Below are positions 38,622 to 57,386 of a stretch of 64,000 nt of DNA, piece by piece. Every line of letters begins with the position of its first letter. The first letter of the stretch is position 1. The DNA lies in the NCBI RefSeq assembly GCF_021129235.1, contig NZ_JAJOMA010000002.1:124001-188000 (forward strand), written 5' to 3'. The notes below the pieces were generated by a model, which was not told the DNA's origin, did not search any database, and saw only the letters and a program-made list of their open reading frames with translations. The position numbers were made by a program, and so were the translations under genes. This stretch comes from Kineosporia mesophila (GTDB lineage: Bacteria; Actinomycetota; Actinomycetes; Actinomycetales; Kineosporiaceae).

Positions 38622-38634
38622 TCACGGAGAGTCA
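38622..38634 (-). promoter_or_regulatory. BldD-box-like palindrome upstream of bldD
   Basis: TCAC-GGAGA-GTCA on the + strand (TGAC-TCTCC-GTGA on the coding strand) fits the BldD consensus TNAC-N-GTNA. It starts 12 bases before the bldD ATG. BldD represses its own gene in Streptomyces, so autoregulation is a reasonable reading. Confidence 0.45.
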
Positions 38635-38730
38635 CTGACTCCGTCAAGTCACATTGGGAAAGTTTTCGAAGGAATTCGCCACTCGGCGTAGGCGAAGAGG
38701 GTCCGAGCTACACGGCCGGTCACCGGCTGG

Positions 38731-38736
38731 TAGCCT
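38731..38736 (+). promoter_or_regulatory. -10 box TAGCCT, possible promoter of the pyr operon
   Basis: TAGCCT fits TANNNT and would start a leader of about 80 bases that contains the PyrR-binding hairpin. No convincing -35. Confidence 0.3.
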
Positions 38737-38777
38737 CCGGGGGCCGAAAGGCGCTCCAAAACGCCATCAGCGACCAG

Positions 38778-38812
38778 TCCTTTAACGATCCGTCCCGTGA
38801 GGCGGAGAAGGA
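38778..38812 (+). promoter_or_regulatory. PyrR-binding RNA hairpin overlapping the pyrR ribosome site
   Basis: TCCTT (38778-38782) pairs with AAGGA (38808-38812) and CCG with CGG around the loop TCCCGTGAGG, which has the PyrR-site pattern (UCC ... GAGG). The 3' arm merges into the purine-rich GGAGAAGGAGGGGG ribosome site before ATG 38825. No terminator or antiterminator alternative is visible, so PyrR bound with UMP probably blocks translation, as reported for mycobacteria. Confidence 0.65.
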
Positions 38813-38824
38813 GGGGGTCGACAC

Positions 38825-39442
38825 ATGTCGCCCGCACGCCCTGCCCAGAGCTCACCCAGCGCACCGGAAGATCCACCCGTCGTGAACGACGGGGTGGAGG
38901 TCGTCCGGGCCGTCCTGGAACCCGCCGAGATCAGCCGCGCCCTGTCCCGCATCGCCCACGAGGTGCTGGAGCGGAACAAGGGTGCCGAGCACCTCGTCCT
39001 CCTGGGGATCCCCACCCGAGGTGTGACCCTCGCCCACCGTCTCGCCGCGCGCCTGGCCTCGATCGAGGGCACCGAGGTCCCGGTGGGCACCCTCGACGTC
39101 ACCATGCACCGCGACGACCTGCGCCGGCAGGCCTTCCGCACGATCGCGCGCACCGACCTGCCCGAGGGCGGCATCGACGACCAGATCGTGGTGCTGGTGG
39201 ACGACGTGCTCTACTCCGGCCGCACGATCCGCGCCGCCCTGGACGCGCTGTCCGAGTTCGGCCGCCCGCGCGCCGTGCGCCTGGCCGTGCTGGTCGACCG
39301 GGGCCACCGCGAGCTGCCGATCCGCGCCGACCATGTGGGTAAGAACCTGCCCACGTCCACGCTGGAACGCGTGCGGGTGCGGCTGAGCGAGGTCGACGGG
39401 GGAGAGGACGTCGTGAGCATCACCGGAGGTGTGGCCAAGTGA
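38825..39442 (+). CDS. pyrR: Pyrimidine operon regulator PyrR / uracil phosphoribosyltransferase
   Basis: RNA-binding attenuator protein that senses UMP and keeps phosphoribosyltransferase activity. 205 residues with a 25-residue Pro/Ser-rich N-terminal extension, then [16 protein letters not shown], the PRPP loop [18 protein letters not shown], and the basic RNA-binding face (MHRDDLRRQ). First gene of the operon; its stop overlaps the pyrB GTG. Confidence 0.96.
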
Positions 39443-51944: not shown

Positions 51945-52020
51945 ACCCATGTCGGGACCCGGATGCGACCGGCGGACCCGGGTAGCCGGACGACGCGGGT
52001 GGTCGGTGGTCAGGGGTGGC

Positions 52021-52245
52021 GGGTGGACGCGGCAACTGGCTCACGGGGGACGGTCAGGTGACGCACGTGGTTGGCGGGTGGACGCGGTGAGCCGGCTTTG
52101 ATGGGGTGGTCAGGGGACGCACGTGGTTGGTGGGTGGACGCGGTGAGCCGGCTTTCATGGGTGGTCAGGGGACGCGGGTGGTCGGCTGACGCGAGGAAGT
52201 GCCCTGAGGCGGGTGGCTGGTGGACGCGGTGAGCCGGCTGACGCG
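52021..52245. repeat. About 55-bp tandem repeat, three full units and a partial
   Basis: Units start with GGGTGGACGCGG at 52021, 52076 and 52132, continue with GTGAGCCGGCTTT, GGTGGTCAGGGGACGC and CACGTGGTTGG, and a partial unit starts near 52218. The second and third are closest. The core GTGGACGCGGGT is the reverse complement of the word repeated near 10.9 kb. Confidence 0.8.
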
Positions 52246-52872
52246 GGGTTACCGGGGTAAGGGCTGCCGGAGTGGGGGTTGCCGACGGACGGGGACGACC
52301 GGCGCACGTCGGCTGGTCCGGGAGTGCGGGGAGCTGGTGGACGGGCGGGTGACCGGGGTGCATCGAGAGAGCTCGGCCTGTCGGCAGACCCCGGTTGCCG
52401 GGGGAGGGCCGCGTCCGTCGGTGGCCGGCCGGGGGACCGTGGCGGTCGGGTGGCCCATGGCTCGGTGGCGTCCGGGCGGGGCTTCGCCGGTGGACGTCCC
52501 CCGCGTGACCGGCACGAGGATCGGATCGGCCCAGGCTGCTGAGGGCCTGTGCTGCCCGCTGCGCCCCGCTGTGACCTCCCGGTGACCTTCCACCCCTCAG
52601 GCCGGCCCGGCCGCGCTCCGGGAGCCCTCCCACGGTCTCTGGCACCGATCCGTGCCGCCGTGGGGGCGGGATTCGGCGATGGGGTGAGCCTCGAGCCGGT
52701 TCTGGGCGGGCTCCAGAGTGTCCCCAGTGGGCCCCGGGCTGGTTCGGAGCCCGGTTCCGGGTGGGTGGCAGGCCAATTTCGACTCGGTTCGGGGCGGGGT
52801 CAGGGTCAACTTGGGTCAGGCTCTGCTCGACTCGGTGCCGACTCAGGCCAACTCTGGGCCGGCTCTGCCCAA

Positions 52873-52957
52873 CTCGGACTCCGGCGCCGACTCGGACTTC
52901 GGCGCCAACTCGGACTGGTTCGGCGCCGACTCGGACTGGTTCGGCGCCGACTCGGGG
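52873..52957. repeat. 18/21-bp tandem repeat CGGCGCCGACTCGGACTGGTT
   Basis: CGGCGCCGACTCGGAC-type units occur four times, alternating 18 and 21 bases in length (TTCGG or TGGTTCGG before GCGCC). Reading frames across it give only repetitive Asp/Ser or Arg/Leu sequence, so it is taken as non-coding. Confidence 0.65.
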
Positions 52958-53219
52958 CTGATCCGGGCCGATTCAGGCCGGATCCAGTTGGCTCGGGGCT
53001 GACTCGGGTGTGCTCCGGAGAATTCTTTTCAGGGCCGAACCGGCGGTCAATGGATACCGCCGGTGGGGGCCCGACAACGCTCTGGCAGGATCCAGCCGGG
53101 CAATCCTGGAGAAAAAACCCGGTCAGGACCGCTGAACAATCGCCGGATGCCGGTTTCACGGCGCGTCCTGGCGGACATGAATACCAGTATGTCTGGATTA
53201 GCCGTTAGTGTCGGCTCCC

Positions 53220-53248: not shown

Positions 53249-53488
53249 CTCCGTGGCGACCGGAACACGGCTGGAAGCTGGCGGTACGGGCGAACGAAAG
53301 GCCCGCGGATCAGGGAAGTGGCGACACGGCCCCCCGCGTTGCCCTCCGGGATACCGACTCGCTAGGTTCGGACCAGATTTCGCGGTCTGCCTGCGCCGAT
53401 CGGATAGGAATGATCGGCTGGACGGCCGGAATTACTCCGGTACGGCTCAACTACCTACTGAGTTCGACGAACAACTGAGGTGACTCAA

Positions 53489-53803
53489 GTGGCTCTGCCC
53501 CCCCTGACTCCCGAGCAGCGGGCCGCCGCCCTGGTGAAGGCGGCCGAGGCTCGGCGTGCTCGTGCCGAGATCAAGAACAGGCTCAAGTACTCGCAGGGCT
53601 CACTCGGGGAAGTGATCAAAGAGGGGCAGGAGAACGAGGTGATCGGCAAGATGAAGGTGTCGGCGCTTCTCGAGGCTCTGCCCGGCGTGGGCAAGGTGCG
53701 TGCCCGTCAGATCATGGAAGAGATCGGCATCTCCGAGTCCCGGCGTGTACGTGGTCTCGGCTCCAACCAGATCGCTGCGCTGATCAAGCGCTTCGGGAGC
53801 TGA
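53489..53803 (+). CDS. mihF: Actinobacterial integration host factor
   Basis: Small nucleoid protein of the mIHF/sIHF family, essential in mycobacteria and involved in development in Streptomyces. I take GTG 53489 ([20 protein letters not shown]), which has GAGG eight bases upstream and matches the family start; a GTG at 53480 would add three residues. 104 residues with a long N-terminal helix, then the helix-two-turn-helix [23 protein letters not shown] and the [13 protein letters not shown] end. gmk follows after 7 bases. Confidence 0.97.
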
Positions 53804-53810
53804 ACCACCG

Positions 53811-54449
53811 GTGACCGGGACGGAGCGGCAGAACCCGTCGGGGGGCGGGGAGGTTCGGCCAGGACGGCTGACAGTACTGGCAGGGCCCACGGCGGTGGGG
53901 AAGGGAACGGTCGCGGCCGACATCCGCCGCCGCTATGAGCAGATCTGGCTCTCTGTCTCGGTCACCACCCGGCCCCCGAGGCCGGGAGAGGTTGACGGCG
54001 TCCACTACTTCTTCGTGGACGACGCCAAGTTCGACGAGCTGATCGCGACCGATCAGCTCCTGGAGTGGGCGGTGGTGCACGGCCGGCACCGGTACGGCAC
54101 CCCGCGCGCCGCGGTCGAGCAGGTTCTCTCGCAGGGCCGTCCGGCCCTGCTGGAGATCGATCTGCAGGGCGCCCGGCAGGTCCGCGAGAACATGGCCTCC
54201 GCGTTCTTCGTCTTCCTCAAGCCGCCCAGCCTGGACGAACTCGTCCGCCGGCTGGTCGGGCGGGGCACCGAGGACAGCGAGGAGCGCGCGCGTAGGCTGC
54301 GCACGGCGGAGGTCGAGATGGCCGCCGAGTCGGAGTTCGACATCAGCATCGTGAACGACGATGTCCTGCGCGCCACGAACGAGCTCGTATCATGGATGGG
54401 CCTGACCCCGACCGACAGCCCGGTCACCAGGGTCGACTCGCACCACTGA
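53811..54449 (+). CDS. gmk: Guanylate kinase
   Basis: Phosphorylates GMP to GDP. 212 residues: P-loop [15 protein letters not shown], the GMP-binding [33 protein letters not shown], and the lid [21 protein letters not shown]. The P-loop has Thr-Ala where Ser-Gly is usual (GPSGVGKGT). In the conserved mihF-gmk-rpoZ-coaBC order. Confidence 0.97.
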
Positions 54450-54517: not shown

Positions 54518-54778
54518 GTGTCCGGAACTGTTGCCAGCCCCGAAGGCATCACCAACCCGCCGATCGACGACCTGCTGTCGACGGTGGACTCGAAGTATTC
54601 GCTGGTCATCTTCGCCGCCAAGCGCGCGCGTCAGATCAACGCCTACTACTCGCAGCTCGGCGAGGGCCTGCTGGAGTACGTCGGCCCGCTGGTCGAGACG
54701 CACGTGCAGGAGAAGCCCCTCTCCGTCGCCATGCGCGAGATCAACGAGGGTCTGCTGACCGCCGAGAAGCACGACTGA
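54518..54778 (+). CDS. rpoZ: RNA polymerase omega subunit
   Basis: Chaperone-like subunit of RNA polymerase. 86 residues from GTG 54518, preceded by TGGAG. Shows [20 protein letters not shown] and the conserved [20 protein letters not shown]. Normal actinobacterial length. Confidence 0.96.
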
Positions 54779-54791
54779 CCAGGGTCATCCC

Positions 54792-56066
54792 CTGAAAATC
54801 GTTCTCGGCGTAGGTGGCGGCATCGCCGCCTACAAGGCCTGCCTCCTGCTGCGCCTGTTCAAGGAGGCCGGTCACGACGTCCGGGTGGTTCCCACCCAGG
54901 CGGCGCTGACCTTTGTCGGGGCTCCGACCTGGGCGGCCCTCTCCGGGCACCCGGTCTCGGCCTCGGTGTGGGACGACGTCTACGAGGTGCCGCACGTCCG
55001 GATCGGCCAGCAGGCCGACCTGGTCGTGGTGGCTCCCACCACTGCCGACCTCCTGGCCCGGGCCGCGCACGGTCTGGCCGACGACCTGCTCACGAACGTC
55101 CTGCTCACCGCGCGATGTCCGGTGCTGCTCGCACCGGCGATGCACACCGAGATGTGGACGCACCCGGCCACCGTCGCCAACGTCGCCACCCTGCGCGAGC
55201 GTGGCGTGACCGTGGTGGAACCCGCCAGTGGCCGGCTCACCGGCGCCGACAGCGGCCCGGGCCGGCTGCCCGAGCCGGAAGACCTGTTCGCCGCCGCCCT
55301 GGCCCTGCTGGACAGCCGGGGACCCGGCCGCGAAGGCGCCGCACCCGCACCGGTGCCCACCCGTGTCCTCCCTTCCGGTCCGGCCCTCGATGATCGTGCG
55401 CTGGCCGGACGCCACGTGGTGGTCTCCGCCGGCGGCACCCGCGAGCCTCTCGACCCGGTGCGCTTCCTCGGTAACCGCTCGTCCGGCCGCCAGGGCGTCG
55501 CCCTGGCGAAGGCCGCCCTCGAACGGGGCGCCCGGGTGACGCTGGTCGCCGGCCCGATCGAGGTGCCTCCCCCCGACGGCGCCGACGTGGTGCGGGTGGA
55601 GAGTGCGCTGCAGATGCGCGAGGCGATGACCGTCGCCGCGAAGGACGCCGACGTCGTCGTGATGGCCGCGGCCGTGGCCGACTTCCGCCCGGCGCAGGTG
55701 GCCGAGCACAAGATCAAGAAAAGTGCGGATGCAGACGACGCGCCGGTCGTGACTCTCGTCCGAAATCCCGACATCCTCGCCGGGCTCGTGGCCTCGCGCC
55801 GGGCCGGTCAGGTGGTGGTCGGATTCGCCGCCGAGACCGGTGACGAAACCGGCAGCGCGCTCCGGCACGCCACCGCCAAGCTCGCCCGGAAGGGCTGTGA
55901 CCTGCTGGTACTGAACGATGTCGCGGCCGGGAAGGTGTTCGGCAAGGACGACACCGAGGTGACGTTACTGTCCGCGGACGGCACGGTGACTCCCGTGCCG
56001 GCGGGCACCAAGGAGACGGTGGCCGGAGCGATCTGGGAAGCCGTCGTCCCTCTGCTCGTCCCGTAG
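54792..56066 (+). CDS. coaBC: Bifunctional CoaBC (4'-phosphopantothenoylcysteine decarboxylase/synthetase), CTG start
   Basis: Two coenzyme A steps in one protein. The conserved flavin-binding N-terminus KIVLGVGGGIAAYKACLLLR is preceded by CTG at 54792, with AGGG seven bases upstream; the frame holds no ATG, GTG or TTG between the in-frame stop at 54756-54758 and residue 32, so translation most likely begins at CTG. Length 424. CoaC domain: SGHPVSASVWDDVYEVPHVRIG (catalytic His), APAMHTEMW. CoaB domain from about 210: SAGGTREPLDPVRFLGNRSSG, AAAVADFRPAQ, and EHKIKK. Confidence 0.93.
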   Translation: MKIVLGVGGGIAAYKACLLLRLFKEAGHDVRVVPTQAALTFVGAPTWAALSGHPVSASVWDDVYEVPHVRIGQQADLVVVAPTTADLLARAAHGLADDLLTNVLLTARCPVLLAPAMHTEMWTHPATVANVATLRERGVTVVEPASGRLTGADSGPGRLPEPEDLFAAALALLDSRGPGREGAAPAPVPTRVLPSGPALDDRALAGRHVVVSAGGTREPLDPVRFLGNRSSGRQGVALAKAALERGARVTLVAGPIEVPPPDGADVVRVESALQMREAMTVAAKDADVVVMAAAVADFRPAQVAEHKIKKSADADDAPVVTLVRNPDILAGLVASRRAGQVVVGFAAETGDETGSALRHATAKLARKGCDLLVLNDVAAGKVFGKDDTEVTLLSADGTVTPVPAGTKETVAGAIWEAVVPLLVP

Positions 56067-56195: not shown

Positions 56196-57386
56196 GTGTC
56201 CGATCGCCTGTTCACCTCTGAGTCCGTCACCGAGGGGCACCCCGACAAGATCTGTGACCAGATCAGTGACGCGATCCTCGATGCCCTGCTGGAGCAGGAC
56301 CCGACCTCCCGCGTGGCGGTCGAGACGATGGTCACCACCGGCCTGGTGCACGTGGCCGGCGAGGTGACCACGAAGTCCTACGTCGACATCCCGTCGATCG
56401 TCCGTAAGACGATCCTGGACATCGGGTACGACTCCTCGACCAAGGGCTTCGACGGCAACTCGTGCGGGGTCGAGGTGAGCATCGGGGCGCAGTCCCCGGA
56501 CATCGCGCAGGGTGTCGACACCGCCTACGAGGCGCGGGTCGAGGCCGGCGCGGACCCGCTGGACCTTCAGGGCGCGGGTGACCAGGGTCTGATGTTCGGG
56601 TATGCGAACGACGACACGCCTGAGCTGATGCCGTTGCCGATCTGGCTGGCGCACCGTCTGGCCGAGCGCCTGACCGAGGTGCGCAAGTCGGGTGAGGTGC
56701 CTTACCTGCGCCCCGACGGTAAGACCCAGGTCACCATCGCCTATGACGGTGACCGGGCCGTGCGCCTGGACACGGTCGTGGTGTCGAGCCAGCACGCGGC
56801 CGACGTCAGCCTGGAGAACCTGCTGCAGCCCGACGTGGTCGATCACGTGATCAAGCCCGTGCTGGACCGCGTCGACATCGACACCTCCGACTACCGGCTG
56901 CTGGTCAACCCCACGGGCCGGTTCGAGGTCGGTGGCCCGATGGGCGACGCCGGTCTGACCGGCCGGAAGATCATCGTGGACACCTACGGTGGTTTCGCCC
57001 GTCACGGTGGTGGCGCGTTCTCGGGCAAGGACCCGAGCAAGGTCGACCGTTCGGCCGCGTACGCGATGCGCTGGGTGGCCAAGAACGTGGTGGCCGCCGG
57101 CCTGGCCAAGCGGTGCGAGGTGCAGGTCGCGTACGCGATCGGCAAGGCGCAGCCGGTGGGTCTGTACGTGGAGACGTTCGGCACCGAGACCGCTCCGGTC
57201 GAACGGATCACCAAGGCCATCCGTGAGGTGTTCGACCTGCGCCCGGCCGCGATCATCCGTGACCTGGACCTGCTGAAGCCGAAGTACCACCAGACCGCTG
57301 CTTACGGTCATTTCGGCCGCGACCTCCCGGGCCTGACCTGGGAGCAGGCCACCCGCGTCGACGCGCTGCGCGCAGCGATCGGGTAG
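56196..57386 (+). CDS. metK: S-adenosylmethionine synthase
   Basis: Makes SAM from methionine and ATP. 396 residues from GTG. Seen: [34 protein letters not shown], the P-loop-like [23 protein letters not shown], and the C-terminal GHFGRD. No SAM riboswitch is recognisable in the 130-base leader. A terminator follows, so it is separated from priA. Confidence 0.98.

Follow-up and report, generated by a model that had tools for sequence, protein, structure and literature searches.

Which codon starts the translation of coaBC in Kineosporia mesophila? The question arises in a contiguous stretch of 64,000 nucleotides of its genome, here called the window, where mihF, gmk, rpoZ, coaBC and metK follow one another in this order, with gaps of 7, 68, 13 and 129 bases, respectively (Table 1). 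The coaBC product is phosphopantothenoylcysteine decarboxylase/phosphopantothenate-cysteine ligase, and the gene ahead of gmk is a mihF-like one, provisionally called mihF. The closest named matches to the window include K. babensis and K. rhizophila (81% in the best segment). Upstream of mihF, at about 52000-53200, the window is GC-rich, with repeat-like peptides in its translated open reading frames and little conservation in two other Kineosporia genomes, G005 and G003.

The coaBC frame opens after an in-frame TGA (54756-54758) and reads ccg ccg aga agc acg act gac cag ggt cat ccc CTG aaa atc gtt ctc ggc. Up to the GTG at 54885, which is codon index 42 of the open frame and stands 31 codons after the CTG, there is no ATG, GTG or TTG. 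A first-pass annotation of this DNA had pointed out that ordinary start codons are missing here although the conserved N-terminus is encoded, and direct reading of the frame confirms this. The AGGG motif that it had placed ahead of the CTG is present at a spacing of 7 nt with correct coordinates, and its arithmetic, by which a gene caller confined to ATG, GTG and TTG would shorten the protein by 31 residues, is right. Its principal proposal, a start at CTG 54792, is backed by the lack of any other NTG codon, a constrained N-terminus, the sister species and CTG-only cases elsewhere, and we regard it as very probably correct.

Table 1. Features at the rpoZ-coaBC junction and around it, and initiator tRNA clusters in three Kineosporia genomes
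Feature	Position	Strand	Remarks
mihF-like integration host factor gene	53480..53803	+	From the open reading frame list; upstream neighbour of gmk
gmk, guanylate kinase	53811..54449	+	TIGR03263; GTG start here, CTG in several relatives
rpoZ, RNA polymerase omega	54518..54778	+	GTG start; TIGR00690, 76.6 bits, cut-off 23.6
rpoZ stop codon TGA	54776..54778	+	13 nt upstream of CTG 54792
Predicted outer stem	54760..54810	+	Pairs the rpoZ 3' end (54760-54767, 54771-54774) with the first coaBC codons (54799-54810)
Predicted 5-bp hairpin CAGGG/CCCTG	54780..54794	+	Pairs the Shine-Dalgarno-like site with the CTG; MFE fold of 54757-54826, z -1.90, weak evidence
AGGG, modest Shine-Dalgarno-like site	54781..54784	+	7 nt upstream of CTG 54792
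CTG, proposed coaBC start codon	54792..54794	+	Sole in-frame NTG from TGA 54756 to the flavin fold
coaBC (dfp)	54792..56066	+	424 aa from the CTG, stop TAG; TIGR00521, Pfam, 6tgv
GTG, first ordinary start codon	54885..54887	+	Within the flavin fold; open reading frame 54885-56066, 393 aa
metK	56196..57386	+	GTG start; next gene 3' of coaBC; TIGR01034, 567 bits
Initiator tRNA cluster (L270, L275, L280)	G000:C34:49994-51975		
Initiator tRNA cluster	G005:C1:1382213-1385396		
Initiator tRNA cluster	G003:C1:3585884-3589003		

The coaBC product scores 382.1 bits against TIGR00521 (cut-off 219.7) and contains the Pfam domains Flavoprotein (PF02441) and DFP (PF04127), both far above their cut-offs. 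The solved CoaBC structure 6tgv aligns from residue 2 of the CTG-started query and through the flavin loop GVGGGIAAYK. By score, by the presence of both domains and by an intact N-terminal flavin-binding strand and loop, the protein belongs to the CoaBC/Dfp family. Two other matches in the genome, 29% and 34% identical, cover the flavoprotein part alone, and a second full-length CoaBC was not found in this genome. Six relatives were compared over the 29 codons 54798-54884. No replacement change separates the window from G002, G003, G004 and G005, which carry 11, 8, 12 and 1 silent changes, respectively; K. rhizophila shows 10 silent changes and one replacement, and the more distant G011 seven of each. 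Judged from these sequences, the N-terminus ahead of GTG 54885 is demonstrably under constraint at the protein level. The GTG is the first codon that an ATG/GTG/TTG caller can accept, but a start there, with the 31 codons before it untranslated, is hardly credible, as these codons encode the flavin-binding strand and loop aligned with 6tgv and have undergone silent changes alone in four of the six relatives.

The base at 54792 could be checked in relatives. In the sister genome G005, whose protein is 94% identical, ccc CTG aag stands at the same place, again without an ordinary start, and the next codon differs synonymously (aag versus aaa). One altered base would suffice for the CTG to be a sequencing or assembly error for ATG, GTG or TTG; the shared codon in G005 with its synonymous neighbour excludes a sequencing error at 54792, CTG-only starts recur in other families, and we give the error reading almost no weight. 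The window species and G005 form a clade with a support of 98 in a tree of 163 CoaBC sequences. In the other members of the genus group that were read, G002, G003, G004 (K. babensis) and K. rhizophila, an ATG or GTG lies further upstream by two to five codons, and the CTG of the window species and G005 looks derived in this comparison. Kineosporia sp. R_H_3, Kineosporia sp. A_224 and one metagenome-assembled genome, which belong to a different genus group, g5, are also without an ordinary start.

The rpoZ-coaBC junction was then surveyed across Actinobacteria. The set comprises 163 distinct junctions from 266 loci including duplicates; it leaves out L060-L111 except L063 (nearly all of them non-actinobacterial) as well as L002 and L003, loci without an rpoZ motif match give no row, and two rpoZ matches without a recognisable coaBC were set aside. 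Ordinary starts were sought between a point 30 nt upstream of the rpoZ stop and strand beta-1. They are present in 147 junctions, the nearest being ATG in 75, GTG in 70 and TTG in two. The remaining 16 lack ATG, GTG and TTG, and every one of them carries an in-frame CTG at position -4 or later relative to the rpoZ stop. By batch, the start-less rows number 8/29, 2/20, 1/14, 0/13, 2/2, 1/36, 1/37 and 1/12. The 2/2 batch, G060 and G065, came from searches directed at families that were already under suspicion, and without it 14 of 161 junctions are start-less; the eight positives among the first 29 indicate that close relatives are over-represented among the start-less rows. In the tree, which was computed with a quick LG model lacking a mixture model, the 16 rows fall into seven groups and require at least seven changes, a count that is silent on gain versus loss. 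One group joins family f18 with two Nanopelagicales at a support of 58; because the CTGs of f18 and of the Nanopelagicales lie at different places, eight slots are counted instead of seven.

Relative to the rpoZ stop, the CTG is found at -4 in four rows, +1 in four, +5 in three, +13 in two, +34 in one and +37 in two, L020 being scored at +1 (it has another CTG at +40) and f18 at +5 (it has another at -4). Thirteen of the 16 CTGs thus lie between -4 and +13, and the positions +34 to +37 belong to g5 and g46 rows. A CTG at +5 or closer occurs in 11 of the 16 rows, compared with 19 of the 147 nearest canonical starts, the -4 cases being partly automatic. These weigh less, since a CTGA arises whenever the upstream gene ends in NNC TGA. 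All four genomes of family f5 in the set, from three genera, have the CTG at +1 after the rpoZ TGA with differing codons beside it, and the three genomes of f18 in the set keep it at +5 while neighbouring codons vary. In the two Nanopelagicales the CTG and the stop overlap as CTGA, with GAGGA six bases ahead. The position that corresponds to the usual start, one residue ahead of beta-1, is CTG in 6 of the 16 start-less rows, but in only 2 of 92 rows that start further upstream (Fisher p 1e-4, kinship ignored); in the 55 other rows it holds GTG in 28 and ATG in 27. With CTG making up 2.5% of codons in canonical rows, the chance of an in-frame CTG is 0.10 to 0.54 per start-less row, and the product over the eight groups, one row each, is 4e-6, a value to be taken as a guide only. 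Local GC was rejected as a driver, since it has no simple effect: 11 of 137 rows at or above 68% locus GC are start-less, and 5 of 26 below. In one of the surveyed loci, L177 (G081, family f8, g46), a stretch of about 15 bases is duplicated, which makes the CoaBC N-terminus longer downstream of the putative CTG start.

The survey also bears on two ways of dispensing with the CTG. The coaBC frame shares 20 bases with the end of rpoZ, its stop among them (54759-54778), so that the two genes might be joined by programmed frameshifting or stop readthrough with no new start; however, the same rpoZ 3' end occurs in Kineosporia with a coaBC ATG or GTG of their own, no slippery run was found by eye, and the CTG-only relatives differ in their rpoZ ends and spacings, which leaves such joining scarcely believable. 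Initiation might instead occur at another near-cognate codon, for example ATC 54798. The literature offers precedents: infC of Streptomyces uses ATC and sigR uses GTC (PMC5472188), and in mycobacteria a leadered start functioned with ATT but not with CTG (PMC4633059). Against this, ATC 54798 matches the conserved Ile/Val codon that opens beta-1 in relatives starting further upstream, lies 13 nt from the AGGG, and as a start would drop the usual M-[KR] lead of the protein. Moreover, ATC, ATT and ATA are missing from some start-less rows, whereas CTG is in all of them. We therefore rate a near-cognate start other than CTG as very unlikely.

At the mihF-gmk junction, for which a sequence motif served as the mihF marker, 10 of 53 distinct junctions are without an ordinary start, nine of them with a CTG at -4 or later. 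L113 is a start-less junction without CTG, and in L116 the sole CTG is the automatic one at -4, heading a long frame. In genus g13 of family f8, all six gmk sequences in the set (L013, L142, L144, L148, L150 and L152) have a CTG 16 codons (48 nt) before the P-loop segment. This CTG overlaps the mihF stop as CTGA in four of the six, while in L150 and L152 the stop is displaced and lies 5 and 16 bases ahead of it, respectively. As the place of the CTG is kept although the stop has moved, the CTG follows the coding sequence and not the stop, and the g13 gmk appears to start at it. The gmk-rpoZ and coaBC-metK junctions, which are wider-spaced in the window, gave no start-less case among 90 and 48, respectively, although these rpoZ and metK controls are less sensitive, in that a chance ordinary start in a longer upstream frame can mask a CTG. 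Pooled, CTG cases amount to 25 of 216 at close-spaced junctions versus 0 of 138 at controls; we do not rely on the pooled p-value, because the rows share ancestry and CTG starts may go unseen in the longer leaders of the controls. A control with a short look-back, superseded by the junction test, left 5 of 97 metK and 2 of 103 rpoZ genes without an ordinary start. Read by eye, four of these metK cases (L012, L027, L185 and L194) have an in-frame GTG just beyond the look-back, the fifth is L022, and the two rpoZ cases are Nakamurella loci.

Within the genome itself, codon usage was screened blindly in the 283 coding frames of at least 100 codons on the 420,807-base contig C12, of which the window covers positions 124001-188000 (the assembly has 7.78 Mb). 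Six frames have a coding signal ahead of the first ordinary start, and coaBC ranks first with a log-likelihood of 13.7, a value for a stretch that takes in 11 codons before the CTG because rpoZ was outside the selected frames. By eye, the other five candidates are one shadow frame and four genes with a plausible ordinary start. The screen errs on the cautious side: where an ordinary codon happens to lie upstream, a CTG start goes unnoticed. From the 74 window frames, ten whose first ordinary start looked distant by eye were submitted to Pfam: in nine the best-scoring domain begins downstream of an ordinary start, the tenth has no domain, and a second CTG gene was not found among these ten. Elsewhere in the window, an 87-codon frame on the plus strand (38622-38882) has no ATG, GTG or TTG and is 97.7% identical in G005 and 83.7% in G003; it has no Pfam match, overlaps its neighbouring frames on either side and could be a shadow.

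How, then, would the CTG be used? We propose that the CUG at 54792 would be read by initiator fMet-tRNA to give a 424-residue CoaBC starting (f)M-K-I-V-L-G-V-G-G-G. Most ribosomes using it would have just terminated on rpoZ, 13 nt upstream, and would restart there by termination-reinitiation, helped by the AGGG and possibly by melting of the AGGG-CUG hairpin; the nearby rpoZ stop would make the weak start codon tolerable. The 13 nt between the two codons are within the stop-start distance of a termination-reinitiation pair, and the closeness of CTGs to upstream stops across the survey fits restart by ribosomes that have just terminated. The joint reading, a CTG start together with rpoZ-coupled restart, is likely on these comparative grounds; for the coupling step on its own, the balance tips only slightly in favour.

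The duplex of the AGGG with the 16S tail has an energy of -3.8 kcal/mol, compared with a median of -3.0 at random positions, and the Shine-Dalgarno signal at the g5 and f8/g46 rows is no better than at random positions; some CTG rows have strong sites of up to -7.9 kcal/mol. In the window, the segment from -30 to +24 has a local z of -2.19, which 2.7% of the 147 canonical rows reach. It is thus itself among the more structured, but CTG rows taken together show no more structure than canonical rows (p 0.14), and RNA structure is not supported as a common feature of CTG starts. The predicted fold, in which the hairpin of AGGG with CCCTG sits within the longer outer stem and would be opened by a ribosome finishing rpoZ, is suggestive only (z -1.9 to -2.2).

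Changes in the initiation machinery were considered as well. A mutant initiator tRNA accepting CUG was rejected, as the full-length matches in eight genomes, CTG users and non-users, are ordinary, with the three G-C pairs of the anticodon stem (GGG/CCC). Loss of IF3 was rejected too, the factor being present in all eight genomes. With an ordinary initiator tRNA and IF3 in place, no global loss of start discrimination is evident. As a separate observation, each of the three Kineosporia searched carries three full-length initiator tRNA genes clustered over a few kb, and this includes G003, which does not use CTG for coaBC; the five other genomes have one full-length match each, and two of them also a weak partial match.

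The strongest competitor of rpoZ-coupled restart is ordinary de novo initiation at the CTG. Here a low level of CoaBC would be adequate or even advantageous, the start might be repressed by IF3 like that of sigR, and rpoZ termination would be irrelevant. The ordinary initiator tRNA, the presence of IF3, the strong Shine-Dalgarno sites of some CTG rows and the sigR and infC precedents (PMC5472188) all agree with it. By itself, however, it leaves the clustering of start-less cases unexplained (16/163 and 10/53 versus 0/90 and 0/48, the controls being less sensitive), and we consider it a serious possibility that is nonetheless doubtful.

Published data make CUG a poor start codon. In E. coli its output is 0.86% of that of AUG; it accounts for 0.024% of bacterial starts, a figure biased by annotation that forbids CTG, and its avoidance by bacteria despite tolerance of first-base mismatches is called unclear (PMC11497404). 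Only one GUG-to-CUG switch was seen among 5,080 ancestral GUG starts (PMC5622118). CTG was neither selected for as a leadered start in mycobacteria (0.03%; PMC4633059) nor enriched there in Ribo-RET (PMC9094748). That the CTG limits CoaBC output, as the first-pass annotation had suggested, would follow by analogy with ordinary initiation in E. coli and mycobacteria, but perhaps not for ribosomes that arrive from rpoZ. Restart in E. coli relies on features of the initiator tRNA no less than fresh initiation does, needs IF2 and is lowered by extra IF3 (PMC2268962). IF3 is reported to accept nothing but Watson-Crick pairs at the first two positions of the codon (PMC10158994). Both findings argue against easy restart at CUG.

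Several known systems resemble the present case in part. The start of sigR in Streptomyces coelicolor is likewise actinobacterial, outside ATG, GTG and TTG and missed by start-codon rules, but the codon is GTC instead of CTG, sigR comes first in its coupled pair, and IF3 repression has been shown for it (PMC5472188). Similarly, infC is an essential housekeeping gene with a weak start codon, ATT in E. coli and ATC in Streptomyces; it differs in its IF3 feedback loop, of which none is apparent for CoaBC (PMC5472188). Termination-reinitiation at overlapping or adjacent genes shares the short stop-start distance (PMC6728339, PMC12548453), and NTGA is the commonest spacing motif according to a review of translational coupling (PMC12548453). 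Neither CTG nor CTGA was found in the one source (PMC6728339), and CUG was not found in the other (PMC12548453). In eukaryotic viruses, restart near a stop tolerates near-cognate and non-cognate starts; the mechanism there is a different one, involving the 40S subunit and tethering by 18S rRNA, and the likeness is an analogy only (PMC5972666). Among the literature matches listed, from which subscription papers are mostly absent, none describes CTG as the start codon of coaBC or gmk.

CTG starts are a known, very rare kind. The coaBC of the window is one instance of a recurring pattern at close-spaced housekeeping genes, and the pattern deserves more attention than the single gene. Tentatively, actinomycete ribosomes restarting after a stop may accept CUG far more readily than ribosomes that initiate afresh, so that tightly packed housekeeping genes would have drifted repeatedly to CTG and many essential N-termini would be mis-annotated; if this holds, readier restart at CUG would explain why coaBC behind rpoZ and gmk behind mihF have drifted in this way. 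Natural, repeated CTG starts near stops would suit testing whether restart relaxes the choice of start codon. A likely annotation error follows for CoaBC here and for gmk in a related family, which would lose N-terminal residues under rules restricted to ATG, GTG and TTG, and these residues matter for structure prediction and for drug-target work on CoaBC.
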